64,000 nt of DNA, from the NCBI GenBank assembly GCA_017936685.1, contig JAGBFA010000009.1:124001-188000 (forward strand), read 5' to 3'. Position 1 is the first letter of the stretch. The number at the start of each line of letters is the position of its first letter. Of the stretch, positions 480 through 44,088 are shown in pieces. Source of the stretch: Alistipes sp. (lineage in GTDB: Bacteria; Bacteroidota; Bacteroidia; Bacteroidales; Rikenellaceae). Below the pieces are notes generated by a model. It did not search any database, had not been told where the DNA came from, and worked only from the letters and a program-made list of their open reading frames with translations. Both the position numbers and the translations under genes were made by a program.

Positions 480-576
480 AATTTTTCATCAAAATGCCCG
501 GACAGGTTGTACTTGACGTACTACCTGTTCGGGCAGTTGAGTGCGCGGCAGTAGAATGCCGCTTTTCACGAAAAAG
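480..576. repeat. Three-hairpin palindromic element, copy 1 (left arm shortened)
   Basis: The right end CCGCTTTTCACGAAAAA and the central hairpin GCCCGGACAGG / CCTGTTCGGGC around GTACTTGACGTAC are intact. The left outer arm is reduced to TTTTTCATCAAAA directly joined to the central hairpin, so about 25 bases are missing relative to full copies. It abuts the 3' end of the alpha-galactosidase gene. Confidence 0.75.
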
Positions 577-578
577 AA

Positions 579-2204
579 TCAGTAGGTGCGGGCATGCGTA
601 TTCCCCGGCGACAAACGCACGAAGACAACACCGTGAGGAGCAACCGTCTGCTCGAAGCGATCGGTGCAGCCGACCTCGGCTACATCGGCCTGCCGCCACA
701 GGTCGCGGACGGTGATGCGTTCGCTCCACAAGCCGAGCGAGCGCGGCACGATGCCGATCTTCATGGGTTTCTCGGAGCGGTTGAACATACCCACGGCCAG
801 CGAACCGTCTTCGAGATTCTTGACGTAGGTCACATAATCGTCGCCCATATAGTAGGGTGTGGCACGCACGCCGAGCGGATCCTGCAACACGTCGTTCACC
901 TCGCAGTTGCACAACAGGCTCAGCGTAAAGTCGTCGAGCTGCGACATGTCGCCGCCGATAAGCATGGGTGAGGCCAGCAGCGTCCAGAGCGTGATGTGGG
1001 TGAACTGCTCGTCGGGCGTGAGTTTGGTCGGGTGGAGATTGGGACCCCAGCCCACCATGCCCACCACGAGCATATCGGCATCGGCCCAGTGCCCGGGCGA
1101 GTTGAAGGCCGCCCAACGATATTGCGCCTCGAAGCCTATCTTGCTGATGCTTGCCCAGTTGTCGCGTATGTCGCCCGTGGTGCGCCAGCACTCGGCCAGC
1201 GATGCCCAGTGCTGCGCGTCGGCGAAAGGTGCCGAGTTGGAGAGACTGTACACTATATCGCGGCCTGTGGCGTGCAGAGCGTCGGCCATCTCCTTGGTGT
1301 AGTAGTAGTCGTTGGGCTTCCAGTCGTATTTGAGATAGTCGACGCCCCAATCGGCCCATGTGCGGGCATCGACCTCGGCAAACGAATAGCGTCCGTGGCG
1401 ATAGTGCTCCTTGCGCACCTTGTTGCCCGTGGGATCCTCGGCCGTGACATATTTGTAGTTCTCGTTGCAGATGCCCTGCTCGATCCAGTCGTAGGTGCCG
1501 TCGGCGTTGTCGCATTGCGTACCCACATGGCCGGCGTAGGTGCCTATCCACGGGCCCGAGTAGATGCCGAACTTCAAGCCCATGGCATGTATCTCATCGG
1601 AGAGGGCCTTCATGTCGGGGAACTTGCGGTTGGGCTCGATATGACGGTCGTCGCCCTCGCGTCGACCCTGCCAGCCGTCGTCGATGTTGATATACGACCA
1701 GCCGAAGTCCACAAGACGCTTGTCGACCATGGCGCGGGCCGAGGCCAGCACCTTCTCCTGGCTCACGCTGTTGCCCCAGCAGTTCCACGAGTTCCAGCCC
1801 ATGGGCGGGGTGAGGGCTATGCGGTCGCCCACGACGATGCGCAGATCGCGCTGGTCGACACCTAACGAGTTGACGGCACGCAGCGTTATGCAATACTCGC
1901 CGCGCTCCGAGAGACGGCCGGTGATGATGCCCGTTTCGGCATCGAGCGTGATGCCCTCGGGCATGTTGTCGGCCTCGAAGCGCATGGGACGCTCGCCGCT
2001 GGCTGCAATGGTGTAGAGCACGGGCGAGCCGGGGCGTACACCGAATATGCGTGCGCTGTTGATGCGCGGTGTCGGTGCCGGTTTCGGTGTGAGGATATAT
2101 GCCGAATAGTCGGGCATATCGACCTTGACGGCATCGCCCGATTGTGCCGTAGAGCACAACGGCACGAGTGCCAGAAGCAGTAAATCGAATAGTTTGAGTC
2201 TCAT
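579..2204 (-). CDS. Secreted GH27 alpha-galactosidase with N-terminal putative Ig domain
   Basis: This 541-residue protein should release terminal alpha-galactose from oligosaccharides or glycans in the periplasm or at the surface. Residues 1-20 form a signal peptide. An Ig-like He_PIG-type module covers about 45-120 (PEGITLDAETGIITG). The GH27 barrel starts at PPMGWNSWNCWG (about 133-144). Asp294 in YLKYDW is the expected nucleophile and Asp345 in WRTTGDIRDNW the expected acid/base, by analogy with human alpha-galactosidase A. A C-terminal beta domain follows. The start at MRLKLF was chosen because it opens the signal peptide and lies about 30 bases below a good promoter; longer versions add non-coding sequence. 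The family assignment is firm, but linkage preference cannot be read from the sequence. Confidence 0.95.
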   Translation of the reverse strand: MRLKLFDLLLLALVPLCSTAQSGDAVKVDMPDYSAYILTPKPAPTPRINSARIFGVRPGSPVLYTIAASGERPMRFEADNMPEGITLDAETGIITGRLSERGEYCITLRAVNSLGVDQRDLRIVVGDRIALTPPMGWNSWNCWGNSVSQEKVLASARAMVDKRLVDFGWSYINIDDGWQGRREGDDRHIEPNRKFPDMKALSDEIHAMGLKFGIYSGPWIGTYAGHVGTQCDNADGTYDWIEQGICNENYKYVTAEDPTGNKVRKEHYRHGRYSFAEVDARTWADWGVDYLKYDWKPNDYYYTKEMADALHATGRDIVYSLSNSAPFADAQHWASLAECWRTTGDIRDNWASISKIGFEAQYRWAAFNSPGHWADADMLVVGMVGWGPNLHPTKLTPDEQFTHITLWTLLASPMLIGGDMSQLDDFTLSLLCNCEVNDVLQDPLGVRATPYYMGDDYVTYVKNLEDGSLAVGMFNRSEKPMKIGIVPRSLGLWSERITVRDLWRQADVAEVGCTDRFEQTVAPHGVVFVRLSPGNTHARTY

Positions 2205-2235
2205 TGCAGATAGTTTTAAGTCTGTTAAATCATTA

Positions 2236-2267
2236 CAAATATACGAATAAGTGAGGGCAATGCCAAA
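2236..2267 (-). promoter_or_regulatory. Bacteroidetes-type promoter of the alpha-galactosidase gene
   Basis: On the minus strand, TTTG (2267-2264) is followed after 20 bases by TATATTTG (2243-2236), a full match to the TTTG / TAnnTTTG pattern. The start codon is 32 bases downstream. The -33 element sits four bases from palindromic element copy 2. Confidence 0.8.
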
Positions 2268-2270
2268 TTT

Positions 2271-2392
2271 CTTTTCCGTGAAAAGTGGCATTCTGCTTCC
2301 GCGCATTTGCTCGCCCAAATGGGAAATACGTCAGTATGTCCCATCTGGGCGATCTTCGTTTGCGTTGCATAATACCGCTTTTGACGAAAAAA
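2271..2392. repeat. Three-hairpin palindromic element, copy 2
   Basis: The ends are TTTTCCGTGAAAAGTGGCA and ATACCGCTTTTGACGAAAAA. The central hairpin is GCCCAAATGGGA / TCCCATCTGGGC around ATACGTCAGTAT. The element lies between the divergent alpha-galactosidase and Fic genes, in the opposite orientation to copies 3 and 5. The bases after it (2393-2423) repeat a tail also found after the copies near 33 and 44 kb. Confidence 0.85.
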
Positions 2393-2535
2393 TAGGTTGT
2401 GGTTCTTTGGAGGTTTTCCGTAATAAAGCGGTCAATTGCTTCCGCGCACGCGTTTGTTCTAAAAGGCGCAGTACATATAGCTATGTTGTTAATATCCCAA
2501 TTTAACGCCGTATTAATAATTATTTCTCTTTATAA

Positions 2536-2567
2536 TTTGCCGATACCGGCAAATGTTGCTATCTTTG
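2536..2567 (+). promoter_or_regulatory. Promoter with palindromic operator upstream of the Fic gene
   Basis: TTTG (2536-2539), 20 bases, then TATCTTTG (2560-2567) is a full consensus promoter. The inverted repeat TTTGCCGATACCGGCAAA (2536-2553) overlaps the -33 element and spacer. A second half-like copy, CTTGCCGATA, lies near 2588-2597 in the untranslated leader. The arrangement suggests a repressor site; the helix-turn-helix at the N-terminus of the Fic protein is the obvious candidate to bind it (inference). Confidence 0.7.
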
Positions 2568-2607
2568 GCATCGAAATCGGAATCATACTTGCCGATAGAC
2601 GGAGTTT

Positions 2608-3495
2608 ATGGAGTATATTTCAGTAGTCGCATTCGCCGAAAAATACGGCATTTCGGAGCGCACGGCGCGGAATTATTGCGCCGAAGGTAAAATCGAGGGC
2701 GCGTTCCTCACGGGAAAAACATGGAACATTCCCGCCGATGCCGCTTTGCCCGCACGCAAACGCCGCCGCTCGAAGCTCTCGCCGCTGCTGACCGCACTGC
2801 GCGAGCAAAAGGCCATGCAGCTCAAAGGCGGTATTTACCACCGCACGCAGATCGATCTGACCTACAACTCCAACCACATCGAAGGCAGCCGACTGACGCA
2901 CGACCAGACGCGCCATATCTTCGAGACGAACACCGTCGGCATCGAGGGCGAAAGCCTCCGTGTAGACGATATTATCGAAACGACGAACCACTTCCGCTGT
3001 ATCGACCTCATTATCGACCGCGCCGAGGAACGGCTGACCGAATCGCTGATTAAGGAACTGCACGCCCTACTCAAATCGGGCACCTCCGACAGCCGCAAAG
3101 AGTGGTTCGCCGTCGGTGCCTACAAACGCCTGCCCAACGAAGTCGGCGGCAACGAAACGACCGCGCCCGAACTCGTAAGTCGGGAGATGAAAGCACTCCT
3201 TGCCGAATACAATGCCAAGCGGCAGAAATCATTGGCGGATATCCTCGATCTGCACCAGCGTTTTGAGATGATCCACCCGTTTCAGGACGGCAATGGACGT
3301 GTCGGGCGGCTCGTGATGTTCAAGGAGTGTCTGGCAAACGGCATCGTACCGTTCATCATCACGGACGATTTGAAGATGTTCTACTATCGCGGTCTGCAAC
3401 GCTGGCCGCAGGTTCGGGAGTATCTGACAGACACTTGTCTGACGGCGCAGGACAACTACAAAGCGGTACTCGACTATTTCAAGATCCGGTACTGA
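2608..3495 (+). CDS. Fic-domain protein with N-terminal helix-turn-helix
   Basis: This 295-residue protein belongs to the Fic/DOC family, which usually transfers AMP from ATP to a target hydroxyl. The motif HPFQDGNGRVGR at 223-234 supplies the catalytic His223 and the phosphate-binding loop. SNHIEG at 88-93 matches the (S/T)xxxE(G/N) inhibitory helix found N-terminal to the core in class II Fic proteins, so the enzyme should be self-inhibited. Residues 1-40 (VVAFAEKYGISERTARNYC) look like a MerR/excisionase-type helix-turn-helix. No antitoxin gene is adjacent. Together with the palindrome in its own promoter this suggests autoregulation. Its substrate is unknown. Confidence 0.9.
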   Translation: MEYISVVAFAEKYGISERTARNYCAEGKIEGAFLTGKTWNIPADAALPARKRRRSKLSPLLTALREQKAMQLKGGIYHRTQIDLTYNSNHIEGSRLTHDQTRHIFETNTVGIEGESLRVDDIIETTNHFRCIDLIIDRAEERLTESLIKELHALLKSGTSDSRKEWFAVGAYKRLPNEVGGNETTAPELVSREMKALLAEYNAKRQKSLADILDLHQRFEMIHPFQDGNGRVGRLVMFKECLANGIVPFIITDDLKMFYYRGLQRWPQVREYLTDTCLTAQDNYKAVLDYFKIRY

Positions 3496-3499
3496 TGTC

Positions 3500-3990
3500 G
3501 TGTTCTGTCATTCTGAGGAGCGGTCGTCGGCCGCGACGCGAGAATCTCTGTTTTGGCCGACATGTGCGCCGTAGGACGGACAAGTGTGTTCCCGACCGTG
3601 AGACTCCCACGTCGCCTGCGGCTCCTCGGAGTGATAGTCTTTTGCCCAAGTCTTTCCCAGATTCTTCACTCCACTGCGTTCCGTTCAGAATGACAAATAA
3701 TCTGTCAACACTCCACCTCGGGACGCGTAACTTAGCTTGCCACGCCCCACATGGAGCGCGATAAATCGCGCGACGAAAGCCCCTCCCGAGGGAGGGGTAT
3801 GGGGTGGGGTCAGAATTGTATAACGGCGTAAGCCGTAGCTTCGGTGGCCGATATTGGTTATGCGATTGTAAATCGCGACGTGAGAATCTCTCTCGGTCGG
3901 CCAATCGCACTTAGAACGGCGAGACTCCCACGGTCGGGCAAAGCCCTCCCTCGGAGTGACAGCAATGCGTCATTCTTCACTCCGCGTTGC
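3500..3990. repeat. Intergenic array of TGTCATTCTGAGGAG-type hairpin repeats
   Basis: From the Fic stop to the barrel gene (3496-4109) no gene is supported. The region holds a forward unit at 3505-3550 whose hairpin is GCGGTCGTCGGCCGC, an inverted unit at 3598-3640, a TTCACTCCACTGCGTTCCG piece, a GC-rich palindrome CCCCTCCCGAGGGAGGGG near 3780, and a further inverted unit at 3920-3962. Confidence 0.8.
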
Positions 3991-15962: not shown

Positions 15963-16099
15963 AAAAGTTTTGATGTTTTTCGTGTTTTTTTAACATTTTT
16001 CCATAATCGGACAGTTTTGTTTCCGGTTTTGCGAGCGGGATTACAGGCCGCAGAAACCGTCATTCTTAGCAGAGTGTAACGCCGTTAAGAATCCGGTTG

Positions 16100-16240
16100 G
16101 GGAAGACATGACCACTCTGTCACTCCGAGGGAGGGCGCATGCCCGACCGTGGGAGTCTTGCCGTCGGGAGCATCGTTTGTTTCCACAAAAAAAAGAGATT
16201 CTCACGTCGCAGTCTGCGACTGCTCCTCAGAATGACAGTA
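16100..16240. repeat. TGTCATTCTGAGGAG-type hairpin repeats
   Basis: A CTGTCACTCCGAGGGAGGG unit with GCATGCCC hairpin arms (16118-16165) faces an inverted unit GAGATTCTCACGTCG...CTCCTCAGAATGACAG (16195-16238). The intergenic stretch 15963-16396 contains no gene. Confidence 0.8.
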
Positions 16241-16274
16241 TGATGGGAATCATCTCCAAAGAACTATGCGCAGA

Positions 16275-16396
16275 TTTTTCGTCAAAAGCGGTTAGTTGCA
16301 AGCCGCACGTGAAAAATCCGCAGATGGGCTGTACCGACGTACTGCCCATTTGCGGATTTAAACGAGGCGAAGCAAATGACCGCTTTTCACGAAAAA
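16275..16396. repeat. Three-hairpin palindromic element, copy 3
   Basis: The ends are TTTTTCGTCAAAAGCGG and CCGCTTTTCACGAAAAA. The central hairpin pairs ATCCGCAGATGGGC with GCCCATTTGCGGAT around TGTACCGACGTACT. The right end touches the stop codon of prfC, so the element also supplies its 3' hairpin. Confidence 0.85.
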
Positions 16397-17980
16397 TCAG
16401 AATTCGGAGGTGAAGTGGAAACGTATATCCTTGAAGTTGTCCTGCGCCAGCGCGAGCGCGTAGCTCGTGTCGGCAAGAAATACGTCGCGGCCATGCTTGT
16501 CGATGGCCATGTTGGTGTGCTTGCGCCGCTTGAAATCTGCCAGCTGCTCGGCATTGTCGCTCTCGATCCAACAGGCCTTGTAGATGGAGATAGGCTCCCA
16601 GCGGCACATGGCACCGTACTCGTGTTCGAGACGGTACTGTATTACCTCGAACTGTAACGCACCGACGGTGCCGATTATCTTGCGGCCGTTGAGCGACGAG
16701 GTGAAGAGCTGCGCCACACCCTCGTCCATAAGCTGATCGATGCCTTTGGCCAGCTGCTTGAATTTGAGCGGATCGGCATTTTCTATATAGCGGAACAGCT
16801 CGGGAGAGAATGAGGGTATGCCGGTGAACTTCAGCTTCTCGCCCTCGGTGAACGTGTCGCCTATCTTGAAGGTTCCGGTGTCGTGCAGACCCACTATGTC
16901 GCCCGGATAGGCGAAGTCGATCACCGACTTCTTCTCGGCCATGAAGGCCGTGGGCGACGAGAATTTGAGCTGCTTGCCGCTGCGCACATGCAGATAGTTG
17001 CGGTTGCGCTCGAATACGCCCGAGCATATCTTCATGAAGGCTATTCGGTCGCGGTGGTTGGGATCCATGTTGGCGTGTATCTTGAAGACGAAGCCGGTCA
17101 TTTTCGGCTCCGACGGCTCGACGCGGCGGGTCTCGGTGGTCGAGGGGCGGGGCGAGGGGGCTATGCGTATGAAGCACTCCAACAACTCCCTCACGCCGAA
17201 GTTGTTGACCGCCGAACCGAAGAACACGGGAGCCACCTCGCCGCTCAGATAGGCTTCGCGGTCGAAGGGATCGTAGACACCCTCCACCAGATCGATGTTC
17301 TCGCGCAGCTGCGAGGCGAACTTGCCGCTGATGTAGGCATCGAGTTCCGACGACGACAGATCGTCGATCTCCACGGTCTCGGCATCGGCCGTCTGCCGCT
17401 CGTCGCTCAGGAACAGCGACAGATTGTGCTCGTAGATGTTGTAGACACCGCGGAAGGTCTCGCCGCTCGATATGGGAAATGCCAGCGGGCGCACCTTGAT
17501 CTGCAACTCGCGCTCCACCTCGTCCAGCAGATCGAACGGATCCTTGCACGGGCGGTCGAGCTTGTTGATGAACACCATCACCGGTGTGCGGCGCATGCGG
17601 CAGACATTCATCAGCTTGCGTGTCTGCGTCTCGACACCCTTCGCGCCGTCGATTACGATGATGACCGAGTCGACGGCCGTCAGCGTGCGATAGGTATCCT
17701 CGGCGAAATCCTCGTGACCGGGCGTGTCGAGGATATTGATCTTCACGCCGCTGTATTCAAATCCCATGACCGACGTGGCCACCGATATGCCTCGCTGGCG
17801 TTCGATCTCCATGAAGTCGGAGGTCGCGCCCTTCTTTATCTTGTTGCTCTTGACGGCTCCGGCCACATGTATGGCACCGCCGAAAAGCAGCAGTTTCTCG
17901 GTAAGGGTGGTCTTACCGGCATCGGGGTGGGATATGATGGCGAACGTCCTGCGCCGCTTGATTTCGTCGATTAAAGCCAT
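16397..17980 (-). CDS. prfC: Peptide chain release factor 3
   Basis: The 527-residue GTPase removes RF1/RF2 from the ribosome after peptide release. The P-loop [10 protein letters not shown] is at about 16-25, switch I contains [10 protein letters not shown], switch II is [14 protein letters not shown], and [10 protein letters not shown] is the G4 motif. Domain order and length match bacterial RF3, and [16 protein letters not shown] is characteristic of RF3 rather than EF-G. The start at [16 protein letters not shown] was chosen because it lies about 28 bases below a -7 box; the longer upstream frame runs through promoter sequence. Confidence 0.95.
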
Positions 17981-18008
17981 TTTCGCGTTTGTTAAGTAAT
18001 TCAGGTTG

Positions 18009-18089
18009 CAAAAGTACGAAAAATTTTCGGGCGGCGAAACTCTCCGGCGGCAAAGCGTGAACATTTCTCGAAAAAAATTCGTACATTTG
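18009..18089. promoter_or_regulatory. Divergent promoter region, prfC / glycosyltransferase
   Basis: On the minus strand TACTTTTG (18016-18009) can serve prfC. On the plus strand TACATTTG (18082-18089) can serve the glycosyltransferase starting at 18115. Both match TAnnTTTG; the -33 elements are weak. Confidence 0.5.
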
Positions 18090-18114
18090 CCACATTGTAA
18101 TCTTACGGACAATT

Positions 18115-26744: not shown

Positions 26745-27110
26745 ATTCTCACGTCGCGTGCACGGCACGCTCCTCAGAATGACACGAACGCAACAAAAGT
26801 CATTCTGAACGAAGCCGCGCGTAGTGAAGAATCTGGTTGGGGACGACATGACATGGTAGTCATGTCGAACGTCAGTGAGACATCTGTGGACGACAAGGCC
26901 TATCGTAATTATATGACTACGTAAATAATCGCGCACAGATTTCTCGCTCACGCTCGAAATGACACCTCGCTGTCACTCCGAGGGAGGGCACATGCCCGAC
27001 CGTGGGAGTCTCGCCGTCGGGAGCGTGATTGCCTCCACTAATATATATGTCAGCCAAAACAGAGATTCTCACGTCGCAGTCATTCGACTGCTCCTCAGAA
27101 TGACAGGGTG
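26745..27110. repeat. Intergenic array of TGTCATTCTGAGGAG-type hairpin repeats
   Basis: Inverted and direct units are visible at 26745-26790 (hairpin CGTGCACGGCACG), 26800-26850, 26930-27020 and 27060-27105 (hairpin GCAGTCATTCGACTGC). No gene is supported in 26656-27263. Confidence 0.8.
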
Positions 27111-27171
27111 AGCATATCAACCTCGCACATCGTTCCCAACCGGATTCTTTGCTGCGTTCAGTATGGCACAA

Positions 27172-27262
27172 TAAAAATCGGTGCGAATAGGCTGTACTCG
27201 ACGTACTGCCTGTTCGCACCAATGATTGAGGTGACGCTATTGGCGTCGTTTCATGAAAAAAG
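27172..27262. repeat. Three-hairpin palindromic element, copy 4 (degenerate)
   Basis: The central hairpin GGTGCGAATAGGC / GCCTGTTCGCACC around TGTACTCGACGTACT is intact. The outer arms are eroded (left ATAAAAATC, right GTCGTTTCATGAAAAAA). The right end touches the stop codon of the zinc-ribbon gene. Confidence 0.65.
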
Positions 27263-27263
27263 C

Positions 27264-27788
27264 CTAAAAGAAATCCGAATAATCGTGAGACTTTGCGGCT
27301 TTCTTGGCAATATTCTCAAAGTTGTCGACATTGCTTACGCCATCGGCTACGGTGTTCTTCAAGATGTTACTCATGAAGAATGCCACCACCAAGCATAATA
27401 TGCCGATAACGGCCAATGAGTTCTTCTTGCCCTCTCTCTTGTCGCAGATGATGCCGTAGGCAAGCAGCGCGATAGAGACCAGAGGCAGATGCCACAAAAC
27501 GGCTGTGGTGTAGAGCCGGTTGAGGAACGTTCCGCTGTCGGATACCAATCCGATGAAGCAGAGCAGCAACAGTCCTGCCGCTATGATCGTACCAGCTACC
27601 GTCCAGCCATTGGCATTGATCTGTATGGGCTGCGGAGCGGGCTGGGCAGCTGCCGGCTGAACAGGCTGTGCGGGTTGCACGGGCTGTGCAGGCTGGGACT
27701 GAACTGCGGCAGGCGCGGGCGCACCGCACTGCGGACAGAACGAAGCATTGTCGGCAATGGGATTGCCGCATTCGTTACATGTCTTCAT
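27264..27788 (-). CDS. Zinc-ribbon membrane protein
   Basis: The 174-residue protein opens with a zinc ribbon (CNECGNPIADNASFCPQCG), continues with a Pro/Gln/Ala repeat linker (PVQPAQPVQPA) and then three hydrophobic segments at about 60-80, 92-110 and 122-140. It is probably a cytoplasmic zinc-ribbon head on a small membrane anchor. The four-helix gene lies nine bases upstream on the same strand, so both are likely made together. No function is known for such pairs. Confidence 0.75.
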   Translation of the reverse strand: MKTCNECGNPIADNASFCPQCGAPAPAAVQSQPAQPVQPAQPVQPAAAQPAPQPIQINANGWTVAGTIIAAGLLLLCFIGLVSDSGTFLNRLYTTAVLWHLPLVSIALLAYGIICDKREGKKNSLAVIGILCLVVAFFMSNILKNTVADGVSNVDNFENIAKKAAKSHDYSDFF

Positions 27789-28789: not shown

Positions 28790-28911
28790 CCCACTTTTTC
28801 GTCAAAAGCGGTATTATGCAACGCGCAACGAACATTGGGCGGACGGGCTGTACTTGACGTACTGCCCGTTCGAACAATGAAGCGAGCGGACGCAGAATGC
28901 CGCTTTTCACG
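28790..28911. repeat. Three-hairpin palindromic element, copy 5
   Basis: The ends are TTTTTCGTCAAAAGCGG and CCGCTTTTCACGAAAAA in the same orientation as copy 3. The central hairpin is GGACGGGC / GCCCGTTC around TGTACTTGACGTACT, extended by CATTG / CAATG. It lies between the membrane-protein gene and the GNAT-like gene. Confidence 0.85.
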
Positions 28912-28943
28912 AAAAAGAGACGGGAAAGAAAAAATAATTTTAT

Positions 28944-28951: not shown

Positions 28952-28985
28952 TACAAAGCAAACGAATTTTTTACAGGAAATAATA

Positions 28986-30200
28986 ATGAGCAATCCGAAA
29001 TACTCTTTGAAGGAGGTGAAGCGTGATGACCGGAGAATGGTCAGAGCGTTTTTGGATCTCCCCAAAAAGATCTACAAGGGCAACCCCAACTGGGTGTGCC
29101 CGTTCGACGATTCGATAGAGGCGGTGTTCGACCCCTCGCGCAACAAGCTCTTCGCCGACGGCGAGGCCATACGCTGGGTGGCATACGATGAAAAGGGCGA
29201 AGCTGTGGGACGCATAGCGGCCTTCTACGACAAGGAGCACGCATACAGTTACGAGCAGCCCACGGGCGGCTGCGGCTTCTTCGAGTCGATAGACGATCAG
29301 CAGCTGGCCGACACGATGTTCGATGCGGCACGTGAGTGGCTCAAAGAGCGCGGCATGGAGGCCATGGACGGCCCGGTGAACTTCGGCTCGCGCGATGCGT
29401 GGTGGGGACTGCTGGTACAGGGCTACGAGTTCCAGCCGCTCTACGAGAACCCGTATAACCCGCCGTACTACAAGGCGTTGTTCGAGAACTACGGCTTTCA
29501 GAACTATTTCAATCAGAATACCTATATATGGAAGGTCTACGACGACTCGATAAACGACGTGGTGTACGACCGCGTCAAGCGTCTGATGTCGACCCCGGGC
29601 TACCGGTTCGCGCCGCTGGGCAAGGGCGATCTGCGCCAGGCCGGAGAGAATCTGCGCCTGATATATAACAAGGCATGGGCACTGTTCACTGGCGTGAAAC
29701 CCATGTCGAGCGAAGATGCGCAGTCGATGGTCAAGATGCTGCGGCCGATCATCGACCGCAATCTGATCTACTTCGCCTACTTCAACGACGAGCCGATCGC
29801 CTTCTTCGTCATGGTGCCCGATCTGAACCGCATCATAGGCAAGTTCAACGGCAAGTTGAACCTTATCAACAAACTGCGGCTGATGTGGGACTTGAAGGTG
29901 CGCCACAAGAGCGACCGCATATTCGCCATCATATTCGGCATCACGCCCGAGTTCCAGGGCAAGGGCATCGAGTCGGGCATGATAAAATATATGTTGGAGG
30001 ACTACATACGCACCGATAAGAACCTCTATCGAAGCATAGAGTTCGCATGGATAGGCGATTTCAATCCGGTGATGAACCGCATGGTCGAGCGTTATATATG
30101 TGCCAAGAAGCATAAGATGCACACCACGTACCGCTATCTGTTCGACCGCACCAAGGAGTTCACGCGGTGTCCGTCGCTGGCACTCAAACGCAATCGGTGA
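28986..30200 (+). CDS. GNAT-superfamily N-acetyltransferase-like protein
   Basis: The 404-residue protein belongs to a family common in Bacteroidetes with a GNAT-like fold; AIIFGITPEFQGKGIESGMIK near residue 325 matches the acetyl-CoA-binding motif (Q/RxxGxG/A). The N-terminal half (VRAFLDLPKKIYKGNPNWVCP) is specific to this family. The substrate is unknown. A 144-base gap separates it from gcvT, so they may have separate promoters. Confidence 0.75.
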   Translation: MSNPKYSLKEVKRDDRRMVRAFLDLPKKIYKGNPNWVCPFDDSIEAVFDPSRNKLFADGEAIRWVAYDEKGEAVGRIAAFYDKEHAYSYEQPTGGCGFFESIDDQQLADTMFDAAREWLKERGMEAMDGPVNFGSRDAWWGLLVQGYEFQPLYENPYNPPYYKALFENYGFQNYFNQNTYIWKVYDDSINDVVYDRVKRLMSTPGYRFAPLGKGDLRQAGENLRLIYNKAWALFTGVKPMSSEDAQSMVKMLRPIIDRNLIYFAYFNDEPIAFFVMVPDLNRIIGKFNGKLNLINKLRLMWDLKVRHKSDRIFAIIFGITPEFQGKGIESGMIKYMLEDYIRTDKNLYRSIEFAWIGDFNPVMNRMVERYICAKKHKMHTTYRYLFDRTKEFTRCPSLALKRNR

Positions 30201-30344
30201 CGGCAATGTTATGACTGGCCGCAGGGAGGCGGGGCAGGCCGGAGCGAACCATAGCGCGACAAACCATTGCAAGCCATGCACCATGTCGCAGCAACCTTGC
30301 AAAGAATTGATACAAATAACGAAAACCTTAAAACATAGAGATTT

Positions 30345-31448
30345 ATGAAAACAACGGCATTTACCAAGTATCATATAGAGAACGGTGCCAAAATGGCCGA
30401 ATTTGCAGGCTACAACATGCCCATCGAGTTCTCGGGCATCAACGACGAACACATGACCGTGCGCGAGAAGGTCGGCGTGTTCGATGTGAGCCACATGGGC
30501 GAAATATGGGTCAAGGGTCCTCGCGCCGAGGAGTTCTTGCAGCACATCACCACCAACAACGTGGCCAAGTTATTCGACGGCAAGGTGCAGTACTCGTGCA
30601 TGCCCAACGGCCGCGGCGGCATCGTCGATGACATTCTGGTCTATCGCTTCTCGGCCGAGAAGTATATGTTGTGCGTCAACGCCGCCAACGAGCAGAAGGA
30701 CTGGGAGCATATCTGCCGCGAGGGCGAGGCTTTCGACCTGCGTGCGGGCGAGGAGTTGGAGAACGCATCGGCACGCACGGCACAGCTGGCCGTGCAGGGT
30801 CCGCTGGCGTTGAAACTTGTGCAGCAGATGTGTGAGGAGCCGATCGAGGATATGGAGTACTACACCTTCAAGATCACCAAGGTGGCCGGCTGCGAGGTGA
30901 TACTCTCTACCACGGGCTACACCGGCTCGGGCGGCTGTGAGATATATATGTATAACGAGGACGCCGATCGCATCTGGGCCGAGCTGTGGCGCATAGGTCC
31001 GGCATTCGGCTTGAAGAACATCGGTCTGGGCGCACGCGACACGCTGCGCTTGGAAGTTGGCTTCTGCCTCTACGGCAACGATATAGACGACACCACATCG
31101 CCCATAGAGGCCGGTCTGGGCTGGATCACCAAGTTCGCCGAGGGCAAGCAGTTCATCGACCGCGAGCTGATGGAACGTCAGAAGAAGGAGGGTACGACAC
31201 GCAAGTTGGTCGGCTTCAAGCTCATCGACCGCGGCGTACCCCGTCACGGGTACGATCTGACCGACGGCAGCGGCCGCAAGATAGGTCACGTGACCTCGGG
31301 CACCATGTCGCCGATGTTGAAGGTAGGCATAGGCACGGGCTACGTGGAGTCGGCATACGCCGCCGCAGGCACGCAGATCGCCGTGGAGGTACGCGGCCGC
31401 CAGCTGCGCGCCGAGGTGGTGCCGGTGCCTTTCGTGAAGATAGGATAG
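30345..31448 (+). CDS. gcvT: Aminomethyltransferase, T-protein of the glycine cleavage system
   Basis: The 367-residue enzyme transfers the aminomethyl carbon of glycine to tetrahydrofolate. The N-terminus ([15 protein letters not shown], then [16 protein letters not shown]) and the folate-binding part ([12 protein letters not shown]) are characteristic of GcvT. Length is normal. The other glycine-cleavage genes are not in the window. No glycine riboswitch was recognised in the 144-base leader. Confidence 0.95.
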
Positions 31449-31585: not shown

Positions 31586-32926
31586 ATGAACGTTAAGAAT
31601 TTGATGGCTGAGCTCGAGCGCAAACACCCGGGCGAAAGCGAGTACTTGCAGGCTGTGCAGGAGGTATTGGAGTCGATCGAAGAGGTGTACAACCAGCACC
31701 CCGAGTTCGAGAAGGCCAAGATCGTGGAGCGTATCGTGGAGCCCGACCGCATCTTCACCTTCCGTGTGACGTGGGTCGACGACAAGGGCGAGGTACAGAC
31801 CAACCTCGGCTACCGCGTACAGTTCAACAGCGCGATAGGTCCCTACAAGGGCGGCTTGCGCTTCCACAAGGCTGTCAACCCCTCGATGTTGAAGTTCCTC
31901 GGCTTCGAGCAGACTTTCAAGAACGCGCTCACGACGCTGCCTATGGGCGGTGCCAAGGGCGGTTCGGACTTCGATCCGGTCGGCAAGTCGGACGCTGAGA
32001 TCATGCGTTTCTGCCAGGCCTTCATGACCGAGCTGTGGAACAACATCGGTGTCGACACCGACGTTCCGGCAGGCGACGTGGGCGTGGGCGGTCGCGAGAT
32101 CGGCTTCCTCAACGGCATGTATCAGAAGCTCGCACGCAAGTACCACACCGGCGTACTCACCGGCAAGGGTATGACGTGGGGCGGCTCGGTGCTTCGTCCC
32201 GAGGCAACCGGCTTCGGTGCTCTCTACTTCGTGCAGCACATGCTCGATAAGGCCGGCAAGTCGATCAAGGGTGCGACGGTAGCCATCTCGGGCTTCGGCA
32301 ACGTGGCTTGGGGCGCAGCTACCAAGGCTACCGAGCTTGGTGCCAAGGTTATCGCCATCTCGGGTCCCGACGGCGTGATCTACAACCCCAACGGCATGAC
32401 CGACGAGAAGATAGCATATATGTTGGAGCTTCGCGCTTCGAACCGCAACATTGTGGCTCCCTTTGCAGAGCGTTTCCCCGATGCAACGTTCACGCCCGGC
32501 AAGAAGGCTTGGTCGGTTAAGTGCGACATCGCTCTGCCCTGCGCATTCCAGAACGAGCTGAACGGCGACGATGCCAAGGAGCTGATCGCCAACGGCACAT
32601 GGTGCTGCGCCGAGGTTTCGAACATGGGTTGCACCCCCGAGGCTATCCACGCATTCCAGAGCGCAGGTATCCTGTTCGCTCCGGGCAAGGCCGTAAATGC
32701 CGGCGGTGTGGCCACTTCGGGCTTGGAGATGACTCAGAACTGCATGCACATCTCATGGTCGGGCAAAGAGGTCGACGAGAAGCTGCACTACATCATGCAG
32801 AGCATTCACGAGGCTTGCGTCAAGTACGGCACGCAGGAGGACGGTACGGTCAACTACGTCAAGGGTGCTAACATCGCAGGTTTCATGAAGGTGGCTACTG
32901 CCATGTTGGAGCAGGGTATCATCTAA
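31586..32926 (+). CDS. gdhA: Glutamate dehydrogenase (NADP-type, hexameric)
   Basis: The 446-residue enzyme interconverts glutamate and 2-oxoglutarate plus ammonia. PYKGGLRFHKAVN and MGGAKGGSDFDPVGKSD with the catalytic Lys in the glutamate-binding motif are visible, and the nucleotide-binding domain starts at GATVAISGFGNVAWGAA. Length (about 445) fits the small hexameric type, and DVPAGDVGVGGREIGF is typical of NADP-dependent enzymes. Codons are strongly biased to frequent ones, as expected for an abundant protein. Element copy 6 begins two bases after its stop. Confidence 0.97.
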   Translation: MNVKNLMAELERKHPGESEYLQAVQEVLESIEEVYNQHPEFEKAKIVERIVEPDRIFTFRVTWVDDKGEVQTNLGYRVQFNSAIGPYKGGLRFHKAVNPSMLKFLGFEQTFKNALTTLPMGGAKGGSDFDPVGKSDAEIMRFCQAFMTELWNNIGVDTDVPAGDVGVGGREIGFLNGMYQKLARKYHTGVLTGKGMTWGGSVLRPEATGFGALYFVQHMLDKAGKSIKGATVAISGFGNVAWGAATKATELGAKVIAISGPDGVIYNPNGMTDEKIAYMLELRASNRNIVAPFAERFPDATFTPGKKAWSVKCDIALPCAFQNELNGDDAKELIANGTWCCAEVSNMGCTPEAIHAFQSAGILFAPGKAVNAGGVATSGLEMTQNCMHISWSGKEVDEKLHYIMQSIHEACVKYGTQEDGTVNYVKGANIAGFMKVATAMLEQGII

Positions 32927-32928: not shown

Positions 32929-33051
32929 TTTTTCGTTAAAAGGCGTCATTTACTTCGCCTCGTTCGAATCCGCAAATGGGCAGTACGCCAAGTACAGCCC
33001 ATCTGCGGATTTTTCACGTGCGGCTTGTAACTAACACCTTTTGACGAAAAA
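32929..33051. repeat. Three-hairpin palindromic element, copy 6
   Basis: The ends are TTTTTCGTTAAAAGGCG and CACCTTTTGACGAAAAA. The central hairpin pairs ATCCGCAAATGGGC with GCCCATCTGCGGAT around AGTACGCCAAGTACA. The first T-run follows the gdhA stop codon, so the element may act as a transcription terminator here. Confidence 0.85.
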
Positions 33052-33072
33052 GTAGGAAGTGGTGCTTTGAAG

Positions 33073-33194
33073 GTTTTCCGTGAAAAGCGGCATTCTACTG
33101 CCGCGCGCTCAACTGCCCGAACAGGTAGTACGATGAGTACAACCTGTCCGGGCACTTTTCGTTTGCGTGGTATAATACCGCTTTTGACGAAAAA
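33073..33194. repeat. Three-hairpin palindromic element, copy 7
   Basis: The ends are TTTTCCGTGAAAAGCGGCA and ATACCGCTTTTGACGAAAAA. The central hairpin pairs TGCCCGAACAGG with CCTGTCCGGGCA around TAGTACGATGAGTACAA. It follows copy 6 in the same orientation after only 21 bases, which reproduce the tail seen after other copies. Confidence 0.85.
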
Positions 33195-33224
33195 TTAGGT
33201 TGTGGTGCTTTGAAGGCTATTTCC

Positions 33225-33690
33225 ACCGTTCTGTCATTCTGAACGGAATGTAGTGGAGTGAAGAATCCGGTTGGGGACGACAAGGCGGCCGTCCTGTCAT
33301 TCTGAGGAGCAGTCATAGACTGCGACGTGAGAATCTCTCTTTTTTGCAGACAAACTTCCGGTGCGACACATACGCTTCCGCCTGCGAGACACCCGCGTCG
33401 CAACTTCGTCGCTACTCGGAGTGACATGGTGGTCTTGCCTTCCCCAACCAGATGTTTCGCTTCGCTCAACATGACATTCGTTGTGTTCTGTCATTCTGAA
33501 TGTAGCAACGCGAAATGAAGAATCCGGTTGTGGACTATGTGCGAGGACAATATGTCCACTCTGTCATTCTGAGGAGCAGTCATAGACTGCGACGTGAGAA
33601 TCTCTTTTTTTGCAGACAAACTTCCGGTGCGACAAATACGCTTCCGACGGCGAGACTCCCGCGTCGCCTGCGGCTCCTCGGAGTGACAGA
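33225..33690. repeat. Intergenic array of TGTCATTCTGAGGAG-type hairpin repeats
   Basis: Direct units at 33294-33340 and 33560-33605 share the hairpin GCAGTCATAGACTGC and the text that follows them (TTTTTTGCAGACAAACTTCC). Inverted units follow at 33390-33425 and 33650-33690. A TCATTCTGAACGGAATG piece lies at 33234-33265. The stretch 33195-33780 contains no gene. Confidence 0.8.
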
Positions 33691-33780
33691 CAGACGGATA
33701 AGTTTTCCGCCGATTTTCCTCTGCCTCTGCCTAAGATCAAGGCTGATCCCATAGAGGTCAACATGTTGAGATACAGAGAT

Positions 33781-37714: not shown

Positions 37715-38100
37715 TGCTCTGTCATTCTGAGCGATAGCAAAGCGAAGAATGACATATTGCATGTAGAGACTCCCACGTCGCCTGCGGCTCCTCGGAGTGA
37801 CAGGGTGGGATTGTCATTTCGAGCGAGAGCGAGAAATCTGTGCGAGGATATTTCCGCAGTCGTATTGTCTTATCTTCCACAGATTCTTCACTTCGTTCAG
37901 AATGACATACATTTCGTCCAGTCATTCTGAGGAGCGGTCATAGACCGCGACGTGAGAATCTCTTTTTTTGATTTGTCCGATAATCGCGTTCCTGACGGCG
38001 AGACTCCCACGGTCGGGCAATGCCCTCCCTCGGAGTGGCATTGCCTTGTCATTCTGAGCGATAGCGAATAATCTGGCTGGGGGCATAATGACATACTCAA
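37715..38100. repeat. Intergenic array of TGTCATTCTGAGGAG-type hairpin repeats
   Basis: Units at 37720-37750 (TCATTCTGAGCGATAGC), 37770-37802 (inverted, GACTCCCACGTCGCC), 37815-37840 (TCATTTCGAGCGAGAGC), 37920-37965 (hairpin GCGGTCATAGACCGC) and 38000-38042 (inverted). No gene is supported in 37684-38131. Confidence 0.8.
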
Positions 38101-39756: not shown

Positions 39757-39768
39757 GTCGGCAGTGGA

Positions 39769-40041: not shown

Positions 40042-40063
40042 CTCTATAAATATTGTTTTTACT

Positions 40064-41278
40064 CTATTCTACATACAGCACAAGGCCTTTGAGATACTCT
40101 CCTTCGGGGTGGTATATGTTCACAGGGTGGTCGGCCGGCTGTGTCAGCTGGTGCAGTATGCGCACCCGGCGGCCGGCGATGGCTGCGGCCGAAAAGACCG
40201 TGGTGCGGAACAGGTCGCGGCTGACGGCCTGCGAACACGAGAAGGTGAAGAGTATGCCTCCGGGGCGTATCTGCGACAAGGCGCGGGCATTGATCCGCTT
40301 ATATCCCTGCAAGGCATTGCCCAATACTTTGTGGTGCTTGGCGAAGGCCGGCGGGTCGAGTATGATCATGTCGTAGCGGTCGCCGATCGATTTGAGGTAC
40401 TCCACCGCATCGCACGCAAGTGCCGTATGGCGCACCTCGTCGCCGAAATTGAGCCGCACATTCTCTGCCGCTAACTGCACGGCACGCTCCGAAGCGTCGA
40501 TCGAGCACACCTCCGCGGCCCCGCCGGCAAAGGCGTTGACCGAGAAACCGCCCGTATAACAGAACGTGTTGAGCACCGTGCGCCCCTGGGCATAACGCCG
40601 CACCAAATCGCGGTTGACTCTCTGATCCAGAAAGAAGCCTGTCTTCTGCCCGTGCTCCCAGTCGACGTTATAAAGCAATCCGTTCTCTCTGACCACATTG
40701 CTTTTGCCGGTCGAATGACCGAACAGATAGCCGTCGACCGCCCCCAGATCGGCCTTGAAAGGCAACGTCTGCGAACTCTTGTCGTAGATGGCCGTGATCT
40801 GCTCGCCGTAGCACTCGCGTATGGCGGCGGCAATAGCTGCGCGCGAACGGTACATGCCCACCGAGTGGCACTGCATGACGGCCGTCCGGCCGTAGATATC
40901 CACCACTAACCCGGGCAGCGAATCCCCCTCGCCGTGTACCAGACGATAGCAGTCGGTGTCGGCGTTGTCCGTGAGCGACAGCGTGCGGCGCACCTCGCGT
41001 GCTACGGCTATGCGCTCCGCCCACCAGCGGTCGTCGATCGGCTCCTGCTCGAACGACAACACACGCACGGCGATCGAGCCTATCTGATAGTGTCCGCGGG
41101 CGATGAAATCGCCGCGCGAGGTGAATACATCTACTAAAGCACCCTCCTCGATGCCCTCTATCGAGCAGTCGACGCGTTCGATGGCACCCGAGAAGATCCA
41201 CGGGTGGCGTCTTAGCAGCGACTCCTCCTTCCCTCGGCGAAGATATATGCGGGGCATATCCATAATCCTATTGTTCAT
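40064..41278 (-). CDS. rlmI: RlmI-like 23S rRNA (cytosine-C5) methyltransferase
   Basis: The 404-residue protein has an N-terminal PUA-like domain (LRRGKEESLLRRHPWIFSGA) and a Rossmann methyltransferase domain with motif I VLNTFCYTGGFSVNAFAGGA, motif II VCSIDASERAV and motif IV DMIILDPPAFAKHH. RlmI makes m5C1962 in E. coli 23S rRNA; the same specificity here is inferred. Its ATG overlaps the exonuclease stop (ATGA), so the two are coupled. Four lipoprotein genes follow on the same strand. Confidence 0.85.
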   Translation of the reverse strand: MNNRIMDMPRIYLRRGKEESLLRRHPWIFSGAIERVDCSIEGIEEGALVDVFTSRGDFIARGHYQIGSIAVRVLSFEQEPIDDRWWAERIAVAREVRRTLSLTDNADTDCYRLVHGEGDSLPGLVVDIYGRTAVMQCHSVGMYRSRAAIAAAIRECYGEQITAIYDKSSQTLPFKADLGAVDGYLFGHSTGKSNVVRENGLLYNVDWEHGQKTGFFLDQRVNRDLVRRYAQGRTVLNTFCYTGGFSVNAFAGGAAEVCSIDASERAVQLAAENVRLNFGDEVRHTALACDAVEYLKSIGDRYDMIILDPPAFAKHHKVLGNALQGYKRINARALSQIRPGGILFTFSCSQAVSRDLFRTTVFSAAAIAGRRVRILHQLTQPADHPVNIYHPEGEYLKGLVLYVE

Positions 41279-41886
41279 AATGCACTCATTTCAGGTTTGT
41301 CGGCCGAGCTTTGCGCCCGACGTATGCGATCGAGTATCTCGATGCAGATCCACGCATCTATGGCGGCGTACATCTTTTGCTGTCCGGTGAGCTCGGCAGC
41401 CTCCCAGTTGCTCAGCCGCTGCGCCTTCGACACCCTCACGCCCAACGTGATGGCTGCTATCTTGCGAAGGCTCTTCTCCTCTATGCCGCACGTTCCGGCT
41501 TCGGCTTGAAGATCGACGAAGCCCTGTGCGTCGAAATCTCTCAATACGTGCAGCGAGCGCATGTCGCCCGCCACGTCGGCACCGACTTTGATTATGCGTT
41601 TCGAACAGAGTATCTTCAATATGCGGTTGTCGAGACGTATGCGACACAATCTGAAAAGATAGCATGTCTTGGGTGTCGACAGCTGTAACAGTGCCACGCG
41701 ATTGGTGACACCTGCGCGAAACGACGGGCGCGTCTCCGTGTCGAAGCCTATGACAGGCCACCTCGACAGATCCCTGCACGCCGCCTCTATCTGCGACTCT
41801 TTGTCGACAATGACTATGCGGCCGTTGAAGCGAGCCGTGGGCATCGCCGTTATATCGTCGTTGGATATCGTAGCTGCAAATGACAT
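41275..41886 (-). CDS. 3'-5' exonuclease, RNase D/DnaQ-like
   Basis: The 203-residue protein has the DEDD exonuclease motifs: WPVIGFDTETRPSF (Exo I, Asp-Glu), the IIKVGADVAGDMRSLHVLRD region (Exo II), and a YAAIDAWICIEI Exo III of the RNase D/Werner type. It has no extra HRDC domain. It is placed between recQ and rlmI; a RecQ helicase next to a Werner-like exonuclease recalls the two activities of the WRN protein (inference). Confidence 0.85.
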   Translation of the reverse strand: MSFAATISNDDITAMPTARFNGRIVIVDKESQIEAACRDLSRWPVIGFDTETRPSFRAGVTNRVALLQLSTPKTCYLFRLCRIRLDNRILKILCSKRIIKVGADVAGDMRSLHVLRDFDAQGFVDLQAEAGTCGIEEKSLRKIAAITLGVRVSKAQRLSNWEAAELTGQQKMYAAIDAWICIEILDRIRRAQSSADKPEMSAL

Positions 41887-41912
41887 TCAGGTAAAATTAA
41901 CAATTTGCAAAT

Positions 41913-43829
41913 TTACTCAATTATTGCGAGTTTTCCATCGGCTGCGACCGAAATTTTGCCCTCGGCGATCAACTTGTCGACGGCCGCCACCGCCGCGGTC
42001 TCGTTGCCGCCGACGGCAGCGATCAGCTCGCGTACCGGCATGGGATTGTTTTTCAACGTGTTGACGATCTTGCCTTTGACGACTGCCGATGTCGAATCTT
42101 TGCGTCGGGCAAGACACACGTCGCACACGCCGCACGGGCGGGCATCGGTCGCGCCGAAATAACGCTCCAACATTACGCTGCGACACTCGTCGTCGCTGCC
42201 GACATAGCGCAGCATGCTGTCGAACCGCTCGCGCATCATGTCGAAGCGGCGGCGATAGGTCTCCGGGGCGATATAGAGATCGGCGGTCGGCAGACGCTCC
42301 GTATCGAAAAATATCATCGGCGAGCGCGCCGAGGGGATATAGCGTATGACGTGCATCTGCCACAGCGACTTGAACATCTCTCTGACACGGTATATGTCGT
42401 AGCCTGCCGCTGCCGCTATGCGTTGCTCGTCGATGGGGCGGAAACCCGTGAACACGCCGTTGCAGAGCCGCAGCACCACGCGTATGAAGTGGTCGTACTC
42501 CTCGCGGTCGATGCGCAGACGGTAGAGATCGTCGCGGCCTACGCAGAACATTATGCGTGCCGGATTGTCCGTCTCGTCGGTCAGAGTCATGTAACCGTTC
42601 TGCTGCAACAGTTTCAGCGCGCTTACGACCTTGCCCGCATAGAGCCGTTCGCGGCGGCAGAAGTCGTGTATGTTGAATACGAACGATGCCATCTGACCGT
42701 CGCCCACAGCCACTTGCAGATAGTTGCAGATGCGTTCGTAGATGTGCTTTATCTCGTCGATGGGCGGAAACTCCGACTCGAAGCGTTTGACTATGCGGCT
42801 CTCGTCGTCGGGTGCCGCCAGCAGCACGGCATAGCTGCGGCGCGAGTCACGCCCGGCACGTCCCGCCTCCTGATAGTAGGCCTCCAACGAGTCGCACATG
42901 GAGTAGTGCACCACCAGACGCACGTCGGCCTTGTCGATACCCATGCCGAAGGCGTTGGTCGCCACCATGATGCGCACCTTGCCCGAGAACCACTCGTCCT
43001 GACGTATGGCGCGCTCCTCGTGCGGCAGTCCGGCGTGATAGAACGACACCGAGTGAGAGTCGGCACGCAGACGCTCGGCAAGCTGCTCTACACCCTCGCG
43101 GGTGCGCATATAGACTATGGCCGATCCCTCGACGCTCGACAGTATGCGCGTCAGCTGCCCGTATTTGTCTTCGGTGTGCCGCACCACATACGACAGATTG
43201 GGGCGCGCGAAGCTGCTGCGCAGCACATGCGGCTCGTCAAAGGAGAGCGACTCCATGATGTCGCGGGCAACGATATCGGTGGCCGAGGCCGTCAGAGCCA
43301 ATACCGTAGCCTGCGGAACGAGCCGCCGCACCTCGGCTATGCGCCTGTACGACGGCCGGAAGTCGTAGCCCCACTGAGAGATGCAGTGCGCCTCGTCGAC
43401 GGCCAGAAACGCCACGTTCATGCGTTGCAGACGTAGACGGAACGTATCGGTCGCCAGACGCTCCGGTGCGATATATAAAAACTTCACGTCGCCGTAAGCA
43501 CAGTTATCCAGCGCAATGTCGATGCGGCGGGCGTCCATGCCCGAGTGCACCGCCACAGCCGATATGCCCAATCGCCGGAGCCTGTCGACCTGATCCTTCA
43601 TCAGCGCGATAAGCGGCGTAATGACTATGCACAACCCCTCGACAGCCATCGTCGGCACCTGATATGTCAGCGACTTGCCGCCGCCTGTGGGCATCAATGC
43701 CAGAGTATCGCGCCCCTCGACGATCGACTCTATGATCTCTCGCTGCATCGGGCGGAACGACGTGTAGCCCCACCATTGCTTCAAGACCTCTTCGAGCGGT
43801 GCCGTCAATTTATGTTGTGGCGATTCCAT
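41913..43829 (-). CDS. recQ: RecQ-family ATP-dependent DNA helicase
   Basis: The 638-residue protein has the helicase motifs MPTGGGKSLTYQVP (I), TPLIALMKDQV (Ia), DEAHCISQWGYDFRPSY (II and the RecQ loop), and QEAGRAGRD (VI). A zinc-binding segment with CRSV, PCGVCDVC follows the second RecA domain, then a winged helix, and the end (VRELIAAVGGNETAAVAAVDKL) looks like a short extra winged helix in place of HRDC. A TATTTTTG box (43841-43834) is only five bases above the ATG. Confidence 0.95.
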   Translation of the reverse strand: MESPQHKLTAPLEEVLKQWWGYTSFRPMQREIIESIVEGRDTLALMPTGGGKSLTYQVPTMAVEGLCIVITPLIALMKDQVDRLRRLGISAVAVHSGMDARRIDIALDNCAYGDVKFLYIAPERLATDTFRLRLQRMNVAFLAVDEAHCISQWGYDFRPSYRRIAEVRRLVPQATVLALTASATDIVARDIMESLSFDEPHVLRSSFARPNLSYVVRHTEDKYGQLTRILSSVEGSAIVYMRTREGVEQLAERLRADSHSVSFYHAGLPHEERAIRQDEWFSGKVRIMVATNAFGMGIDKADVRLVVHYSMCDSLEAYYQEAGRAGRDSRRSYAVLLAAPDDESRIVKRFESEFPPIDEIKHIYERICNYLQVAVGDGQMASFVFNIHDFCRRERLYAGKVVSALKLLQQNGYMTLTDETDNPARIMFCVGRDDLYRLRIDREEYDHFIRVVLRLCNGVFTGFRPIDEQRIAAAAGYDIYRVREMFKSLWQMHVIRYIPSARSPMIFFDTERLPTADLYIAPETYRRRFDMMRERFDSMLRYVGSDDECRSVMLERYFGATDARPCGVCDVCLARRKDSTSAVVKGKIVNTLKNNPMPVRELIAAVGGNETAAVAAVDKLIAEGKISVAADGKLAIIE

Positions 43830-43845
43830 ATTGCAAAAATACTAA

Positions 43846-43967
43846 TTTTTCCGTGAAAAGCGGCATTCTACTGCCGCTCCTCGTCGTTCGACAATGGGCA
43901 GTACACCAGTACAGCCCATCGTCTCACTCTGTCGTCGCGTGGTATAATACCGCTTTTGACGAAAAAA
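43846..43967. repeat. Three-hairpin palindromic element, copy 8
   Basis: The ends are TTTTTCCGTGAAAAGCGG and CCGCTTTTGACGAAAAA. The central hairpin pairs CGACAATGGGC with GCCCATCGTCTC (ends partly mismatched) around AGTACACCAGTACA. It directly abuts copy 9 in the same orientation. Confidence 0.85.
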
Positions 43968-44088
43968 TTTTCCGTGAAAAGGCGTCATTTGCTTCCGCGC
44001 GCTCGTTCGTCCGAATAGGCAGTACGTCAGTACAGCCTATCCGTCCTCACATCGTTTGCGTGGCAACTAACCGCTTTTGACGAAAAAA
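43968..44088. repeat. Three-hairpin palindromic element, copy 9
   Basis: The ends are TTTTCCGTGAAAAGGCGTCA and ACCGCTTTTGACGAAAAA. The central hairpin pairs CGTCCGAATAGGC with GCCTATCCGTCC around AGTACGTCAGTACA. Head-to-tail with copy 8. Confidence 0.85.

Follow-up and report, generated by a model that had tools for sequence, protein, structure and literature searches.

Integron attC sites are imperfect palindromes located behind stop codons; their folded bottom strand is preferred, they are recognised by structure and not by sequence, and they occur in species-specific versions. Together with several families of short interspersed palindromes they are the closest described systems for a hairpin element of about 120 nt that was found in nine copies in a 64,000-nucleotide stretch of Alistipes sp. 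(assembly GCA_017936685.1, contig JAGBFA010000009.1, positions 124,001 to 188,000), referred to in whole as the window. Among attC sites the superintegron repeats come closest; attC sites are treated in PMC6393395. ERIC, or RU-1, is described as an intergenic imperfect palindrome of ~127 bp that forms a stable stem loop, is present in many copies and has a transfer mechanism given as not known; TA duplications are reported at the target sites of ERIC-type palindromes (PMC2759123). REP and BIME sequences with RAYT are palindromes of 20–40 bp with an unpaired tag, and CGTC-tagged REPs are presented as lacking a known transposase (PMC3733652). In Bacteroidetes, palindromic candidate structured RNAs of ~100–130 nt with covariation have been described (HMP2_4205, HMP2_1032), and intrinsic terminators were predicted for 230 of 250 palindromic candidates (PMC8040213).

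The element analysed here folds into a single rod, covaries within and between species, shows a strand bias and abuts stop codons with one specific end. Strand A of a copy in the source genome (2.28 Mb, 16 contigs, 88.8% complete) begins with the L end, TTTTTCGTCAAAAGCGG, and closes with the R end, CCGCTTTTCACGAAAAA; the opposite strand is strand B. Counts are given for "own" copies, the 150 that were scored out of 1150 candidates in the source genome, and for 110 "sister" copies from sister species, which are the distinct ones from 193 rows, taken on the better strand with cut or partial matches excluded.

By description, the element resembles an ERIC-type miniature inverted-repeat transposable element (MITE) in being an intergenic, imperfect palindrome of ~120 nt with many copies. 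It differs in that there is no general target duplication, one end abuts stop codons, covariation of the stems extends across species and one of the strands is preferred. Like REPs it is a palindrome behind genes in many copies, and CGTC lies close to the L end in 136/150 own copies. Unlike REPs, however, it is ~120 nt long, lacks GTAG at the start of strand A (first 12 nt; 0/150 own, 0/110 sister), carries CGTC in 20 of the 110 sister copies, has this tag largely paired in the rod, and resides in a genus where none of 23 genomes had a Y1 gene. The better-folding strand and the position behind a stop codon are shared with attC, as are the imperfect palindrome and the species-specific versions. 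The RYYYAAC/GTTRRRY core was however absent from all 260 copies (0/150 own, 0/110 sister), no integrase exceeded the cut-off in 61 genomes, and own copies were dispersed over 14 of the 16 contigs on both strands, also behind conserved genes, and not arrayed. The HMP2 candidates, compared by description, differ in being mostly predicted terminators; a GC stem followed by a T tract was not what the element presented, since most sister copies lack a run of four or more T. No description of the hairpin family was found in the literature searched, in which subscription journals were thinly covered. By kind the family belongs with the short interspersed palindromes, and what is new here is the landing at stop codons, the strand bias, the turnover of stems and the lack of a known enzyme among those searched for.

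Results

Fold and covariation of the element

Four copies were folded on both strands, and in all 8 strands a single rod was the minimum-energy fold, 8.5–11 standard deviations (SD) below shuffles. The rod consists, in order, of a 7-bp stem at the outside, a C-C mismatch, a ~10-bp stem, a loose middle, a ~16-bp central stem, a mismatch, GTAC/GTAC and a short loop. A preliminary description of the window had proposed a three-hairpin shape; this was not borne out, as the small outer hairpins were paired in 82.3% of cells compared to 97.3% for arm-to-arm pairing in the single rod. Its remaining structural points stood: the ends are complementary, the central arms differ between copies yet are complementary within each, and the GTAC...GTAC apex is kept with a T-T mismatch beside it (A-A on the other strand). 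The apex was GTAC/GTAC or ATAC/GTAT in 256 of the 260 own and sister copies, mixed in 2 and not found in 2. The adjacent mismatch was kept in 252/258 copies overall, that is in 148/150 own copies (TT 116, CT 31, AG 1) and in 104 of the 108 sister copies with an apex (TT 45, CT 45, AA 8, AG 6). C-C at the ninth pair was found in 136/150 own but in only 61/110 sister copies. In alignment A1, which comprises 93 of 94 short copies, a G-U pair at columns 50–78 was present in 92/93; copy L071 lacks this otherwise fixed wobble and pairs better. A1 omits L079:1543-1663, the orientation of which was ambiguous, contains none of 12 copies with an insert, and derives from a copy set from which joins of 230 nt or more were excluded. 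Plain correction of one arm by the other would erase mismatches and wobble; both are kept, which supports a selected fold.

Covariation was evaluated on the 93 own copies on which the covariance model R1 was trained. Over the whole rod 97.2% of 3720 cells were paired. Changes on both sides of a pair were found in 465 cells compared to 145 in shuffles, which do not keep relatedness. The covariation score was 0.353, compared to 0.123 for shuffles and a maximum of 0.066 on sliding. Across species the stems turn over while pairing is kept: 33 distinct outer 7-mers occurred in the 110 sister copies, with 735 of 770 cells paired, whereas own copies had 6 distinct 7-mers, 138 of 150 being identical, with 1029/1050 cells paired. 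The earlier argument from paired change to a selected fold was thus supported, with more force across species than within the genome, where two weaker measures were barely or not above shuffles (pairs changed on both sides, 19 vs 16.6; further pair types, 46 vs 46.8).

Abutment of stop codons and strand preference

A stop codon lay between -13 and +10 nt of the R end in 45/150 own and 60/110 sister copies, and within the same distance of the L end in none (0/150 and 0/110). For others the stop codon was 113–156 nt away, as expected behind a tandem copy. The location between genes, often touching stop codons, was thus confirmed and proved to be specific to the R end. When only the stop codon was used to set the orientation, the antisense strand of the abutting gene folded better than the mRNA strand in 40 of 45 own copies (mean -63.4 vs -57.8 kcal/mol) and in 59 of 60 sister copies (-66.3 vs -51.1 kcal/mol). 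G-U pairs per copy on the antisense and mRNA strands numbered 2.8 vs 1.5 in own and 4.7 vs 0.4 in sister copies. As the antisense strand folds better, the selected fold is probably not the 3' structure of the mRNA of the abutting gene itself.

Copies in the window and the source genome

All nine copies of the preliminary description were located, and by R1 seven are complete and two damaged. Open reading frames (ORFs) near copies were taken by a simple longest-ORF rule, with no gene caller. The copies and adjoining features, in window coordinates, are:

457..575 (R1 match 457–571), plus strand: damaged copy whose R end lies 3 nt off the stop codon of an alpha-galactosidase-like gene on the minus strand (579–2318)
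2272..2391, minus strand: complete copy (L026); central arms GCCCAGATGGGA/TCCCATTTGGGC, apex ATAC/GTAT
2412..2470, minus strand: half-copy remnant (by eye) adjoining copy 2272..2391; repeat family D17
16275..16396, plus strand: complete copy; R end abuts the stop codon of the minus-strand release factor 3 (RF3) gene 16397–18112
27142..27260, plus strand: copy damaged in its left arm; the minus-strand ORF 27264–27788 has its 3' end 3 nt from the R end
28795..28916, plus strand: complete copy; on the R side the minus-strand gene 28971–30545 ends 54 nt off
32929..33051, minus strand: complete copy; R end 2 nt past the stop codon of the plus-strand glutamate-dehydrogenase-type gene 31586–32926
33052..33073, minus strand: tail module next to the L end, reading CCTTCAAAGCACCACTTCCTA... 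on the strand of the element; like letters occur at many own L ends
33074..33194, minus strand: complete copy, in tandem with copy 32929..33051
43847..43966, minus strand: complete copy, first member of a tandem pair
43968..44087, minus strand: complete copy, second member of the tandem pair
218–380, 3487–3961, 16049–16251, 26789–27119, 33223–33722, 37756–38040, 44105–44379 and 52569–52982: repeat mosaics of several families of their own

The mosaics in the last row are dense arrangements of other short repeats (GTCATTCTGAGGAG...GAGAATCTC and similar) that lie beside many hairpins, often just past the L-end tail. Genome-wide, R1 gave a family size of at least 150 copies among the 1150 candidates; all 150 scored candidates matched, so the true copy number may be higher. 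A 14-mer end motif allowing at most one mismatch occurred 91+91 times in the genome compared to 1+1 for its reversed control, well beyond chance.

At the elements there was no Rfam match above the gathering score; the three matches in the window lie elsewhere. Among features away from the copies, a SAM-II riboswitch above the gathering score lies at 53138–53199, upstream of ORF 53259–54551, and two long direct repeats of 229 and 300 nt, 84–87% alike and 735–741 nt apart, lie at 57105–58407 within the reading frame 56644–58569.

Occupation of sites in related species

R1 matched in 22 of 61 genomes, all from one genus (22/37), and in 0 of the 24 genomes from other families of the order. In the genus G003, G011, G017, G021, G025 and G035 are element-rich, and G001, G007, G014, G019 and G023 are R1-negative, where R1 could overlook distant versions. 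A scan of 198 genomes of the order, covering 151 genera, returned only the source genome; here filters were strict and scoring was limited to at most 18 candidates in each genome, so that distant versions may have escaped. The central-hairpin pattern was found in at least 114 stretches of named genomes. Among the 80 matches listed, one carried the label Bacteroidales bacterium and the other 79 Alistipes sp. or Rikenellaceae; viral contigs gave no match. For 59 sister copies that were folded, taken from 101 R1 rows by better strand, strand A was the more stable in 56; several were not full rods (e.g. L195, L107 at 1950, L086 at 1626 and two of L091).

Sites behind two conserved genes were compared within the genus, reading 30 of the 58 genomes with a match for RF3 and 30 of the 55 with a match for glutamate dehydrogenase (GDH), with carriers called by eye. 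A hairpin element was found at the GDH stop codon in 9/30 loci and at the RF3 stop codon in 4/30; many other GDH loci had an ordinary-looking terminator hairpin, again by eye. Independently of this reading, R1 matched 8 of the 9 GDH-site elements, own included, G062 and G068 weakly and G064 not at all. Seven of the nine gave clear rods, counting G065, where the mRNA strand was folded and had side hairpins; G064 and G062 gave no full rod within 135 nt. In a single-gene GDH tree the carriers fell in three places, namely G000, G003 and a clade of seven (support 1.000), and G019, the sister of carrier G000, had no element (support 0.996). Gains are not the sole reading of these three positions, which could reflect several losses instead. 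G065 and G083 were 95% alike over the last 300 coding nt but, counted from the stop codon onwards, only 57% over 135 nt, while for G068 and G083 these values were 95% and 82%; the baseline between non-carriers and carriers over 135 nt was 41–53%. With gene ends 95% alike and the element stretch only 57%, the same site holds very different versions in close species. The GDH site is accordingly occupied both in separate branches and by divergent versions, and orthologous sites were seen occupied and unoccupied between species.

Search for a mobilizing enzyme

A linked REP-type transposase, as suggested in the preliminary description, did not materialise: PF01797 (Y1) was found in 0/23 genus genomes compared to 12/14 genomes of other families of the order. 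The integron integrase TIGR02249 was over the cut-off in 0/61 genomes and also in 0/14 control genomes; weaker tyrosine-recombinase matches to it, in 61/61 genomes, fell below the cut-off and were not followed. A search for IS110-type enzymes in 23 genus genomes gave one weak match. Reverse transcriptase was present in 21 of 61 genomes, twice in the source genome, and was rejected as the mover since it is absent from the element-rich G011, G017, G021, G022, G027, G028 and G035. Many of the genomes searched are incomplete, which limits the weight of these absences. Similar ORFs near copies fell into 18 clusters. For 10 of these the longest members were compared with Pfam and matched Lcl_C, Beta_elim_lyase, Ribosomal_L31 and DUF4890 but no transposase family, so no copy was seen to belong to a known insertion sequence; DDE, Y2 and relaxase families were not searched genome-wide. 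In the largest cluster 62 of 113 ORFs overlap copies, and it was therefore taken to represent translated repeats.

Apical loop, inserts and end modules

The apical loop (columns 62–66 of A1) showed 0.25 differences per site compared to 0.016 elsewhere, an increase of ~15-fold, in 101 near-identical pairs (at most 3 differences outside the loop) that are not independent of each other. For pairs with identical central arms the values were 0.28 in the loop, 0.013 in unpaired columns 32–42, 0.065 in columns 86–94 and 0.057 in the outer stems. The loop follows the pattern T-N-R...Y, with a purine in third place in 147/149 own and 91/106 sister copies. No link between loop and flank was observed in 3-mer sharing, which equalled shuffles; the best single positions reached ~4 SD in 400 tests. 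Such a hot spot would be explicable by damage or rewriting at the tip of an extruded DNA hairpin, and equally by a tolerant RNA loop.

An extra module of ~77 bp, hairpin-like by eye, was found in 12 of 106 copies (L001, L003, L005, L022, L025, L038, L054, L055, L071, L076, L078 and L080), always at one point of the left arm and in different arm types and subfamilies. A few copies resemble chimaeras of two subfamilies joined at the apex (by eye); in the 93 aligned copies the central mismatches never reach four, which makes this reading weak. A short tail lies outside the L end, CTCCAAAGAACCACAACCCAA-like in own copies and, more weakly, CAGCACNACCCAA-like in sister copies. Extra partial R-end units (TTTTTCGTGA-like) lie just outside the R end of L050, L061, L062, L064, L075 and L081 and give the appearance of an end that was added repeatedly.

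Discussion

We tentatively favour, at somewhat less than an even chance, a mobile hairpin that is handled as folded single-stranded DNA by an enzyme beyond those found in the searches for a mover. The working form of this non-coding repeat of ~120 nt would be one folded strand, strand A, recognised by its shape as single-stranded DNA and moved into DNA just behind a stop codon without a general target duplication, the moving enzyme presumably being supplied in trans. Recognition of shape would leave the stems free to drift as long as pairing is kept, with each species amplifying its own version. One favoured folded strand, shape over sequence and the lack of duplication are traits of single-stranded DNA systems (IS200/IS605, REP, attC). 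A bolder version, which we consider doubtful, is a new mobility system. Its enzyme, belonging to none of the Y1, integron-integrase, reverse-transcriptase and IS110 families, would recognise the hairpin by shape in one DNA strand and insert it into the template strand right behind stop codons, and the hypervariable apical loop may be rewritten with each move.

Several results weigh against a mobile single-stranded hairpin. The mRNA strand folds better in 5/45 own and 1/60 sister copies and in the GDH-site copy of G065, and the wobble bias would be no different if strand A folded as RNA. Among sporadic single-copy changes in the source genome, no preference for G-U over A-C was seen (by eye). 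Behind co-directional genes, strand A would correspond to the template of the leading strand, which is not the usual target of Y1 elements. The searches for Y1, integron integrase and IS110-type enzymes, and the rejection of reverse transcriptase, left no mover among these families. Own flanks show small excesses of duplication (length 8, 2 vs 0.5; length 4 with a shift, 18 vs 12.3 of 149). Finally, as the comparison offered no close strains with an empty site, mobility is inferred.

The wobble bias and the abutment of stop codons on the antisense side are also what would be expected if the folded form were a strand-A RNA, antisense or read-through, that shields or regulates the 3' end of the abutting gene, with the repeats kept for that job, and the 3' ends of genes face both element ends in 51/150 own copies. 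Both neighbours are however antiparallel to strand A in 38/150 own and 46/110 sister copies, where neither would transcribe it. TAnnTTTG is a Bacteroidetes promoter motif, and within 60 nt upstream of the L end it was present in 0/145 own and 3/100 sister copies (0 and 3 on the other strand); this lack of enrichment speaks against an antisense RNA gene, and we regard the RNA explanation as rather unlikely. Strand B instead would be the RNA if the element were a portable transcription terminator or a stabiliser of the mRNA 3' end of the abutting gene, a role suggested by the ordinary-looking terminator hairpin (by eye) in which the same genes end in many element-free sister species, and by a run of at least four T near the 3' end of own copies on strand A (149/150) and strand B (150/150). 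The presence of this run on both strands is not repeated in sister copies, where no T run within the final 25 nt exceeded three in 89/110 (strand A) and 90/110 (strand B). This speaks against an intrinsic terminator, and the mRNA strand usually folds worse, which leaves such a role quite unlikely.

Size, imperfect palindrome, high copy number and intergenic sites would fit a MITE of the ERIC kind that a DDE transposase moves as double-stranded DNA, as would the slight surplus of short duplications flanking own copies. Sister flanks equalled shuffles at duplication lengths 2–9, and 80 L-side offsets at lengths 4–6 revealed no common target duplication. The lack of a general duplication speaks against a double-stranded MITE, as do outer ends that vary between species and subfamilies, unlike fixed terminal inverted repeats, and the absence of a transposase family from the 10 scanned ORF-cluster representatives, DDE families not having been searched genome-wide; we judge this explanation decidedly improbable. 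Templated correction of one arm by the other is established for quasi-palindromes. If it acted during replication, passive palindromes could owe their arm complementarity to it alone, and L071, which lost the fixed wobble and pairs better, is what it would produce. It would not be expected to spare the G-U pair at columns 50–78 or the apex mismatch, both of which persist in nearly all copies, nor C-C at the ninth pair in own copies, although in sister copies that mismatch is often missing; passive origin therefore appears highly improbable.

How short palindromes without a dedicated enzyme spread is presented as an open question for CGTC-tagged REPs (PMC3733652) and enterobacterial repeat units (PMC2759123). 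The present family offers handles on it in the form of a fast-evolving rod of conserved shape, a strand preference, a precise landing site, recurrent occupation of sites and a genus that is Y1-negative in the genomes searched. Comparison of element-rich and element-poor species of this genus could point to the enzyme.

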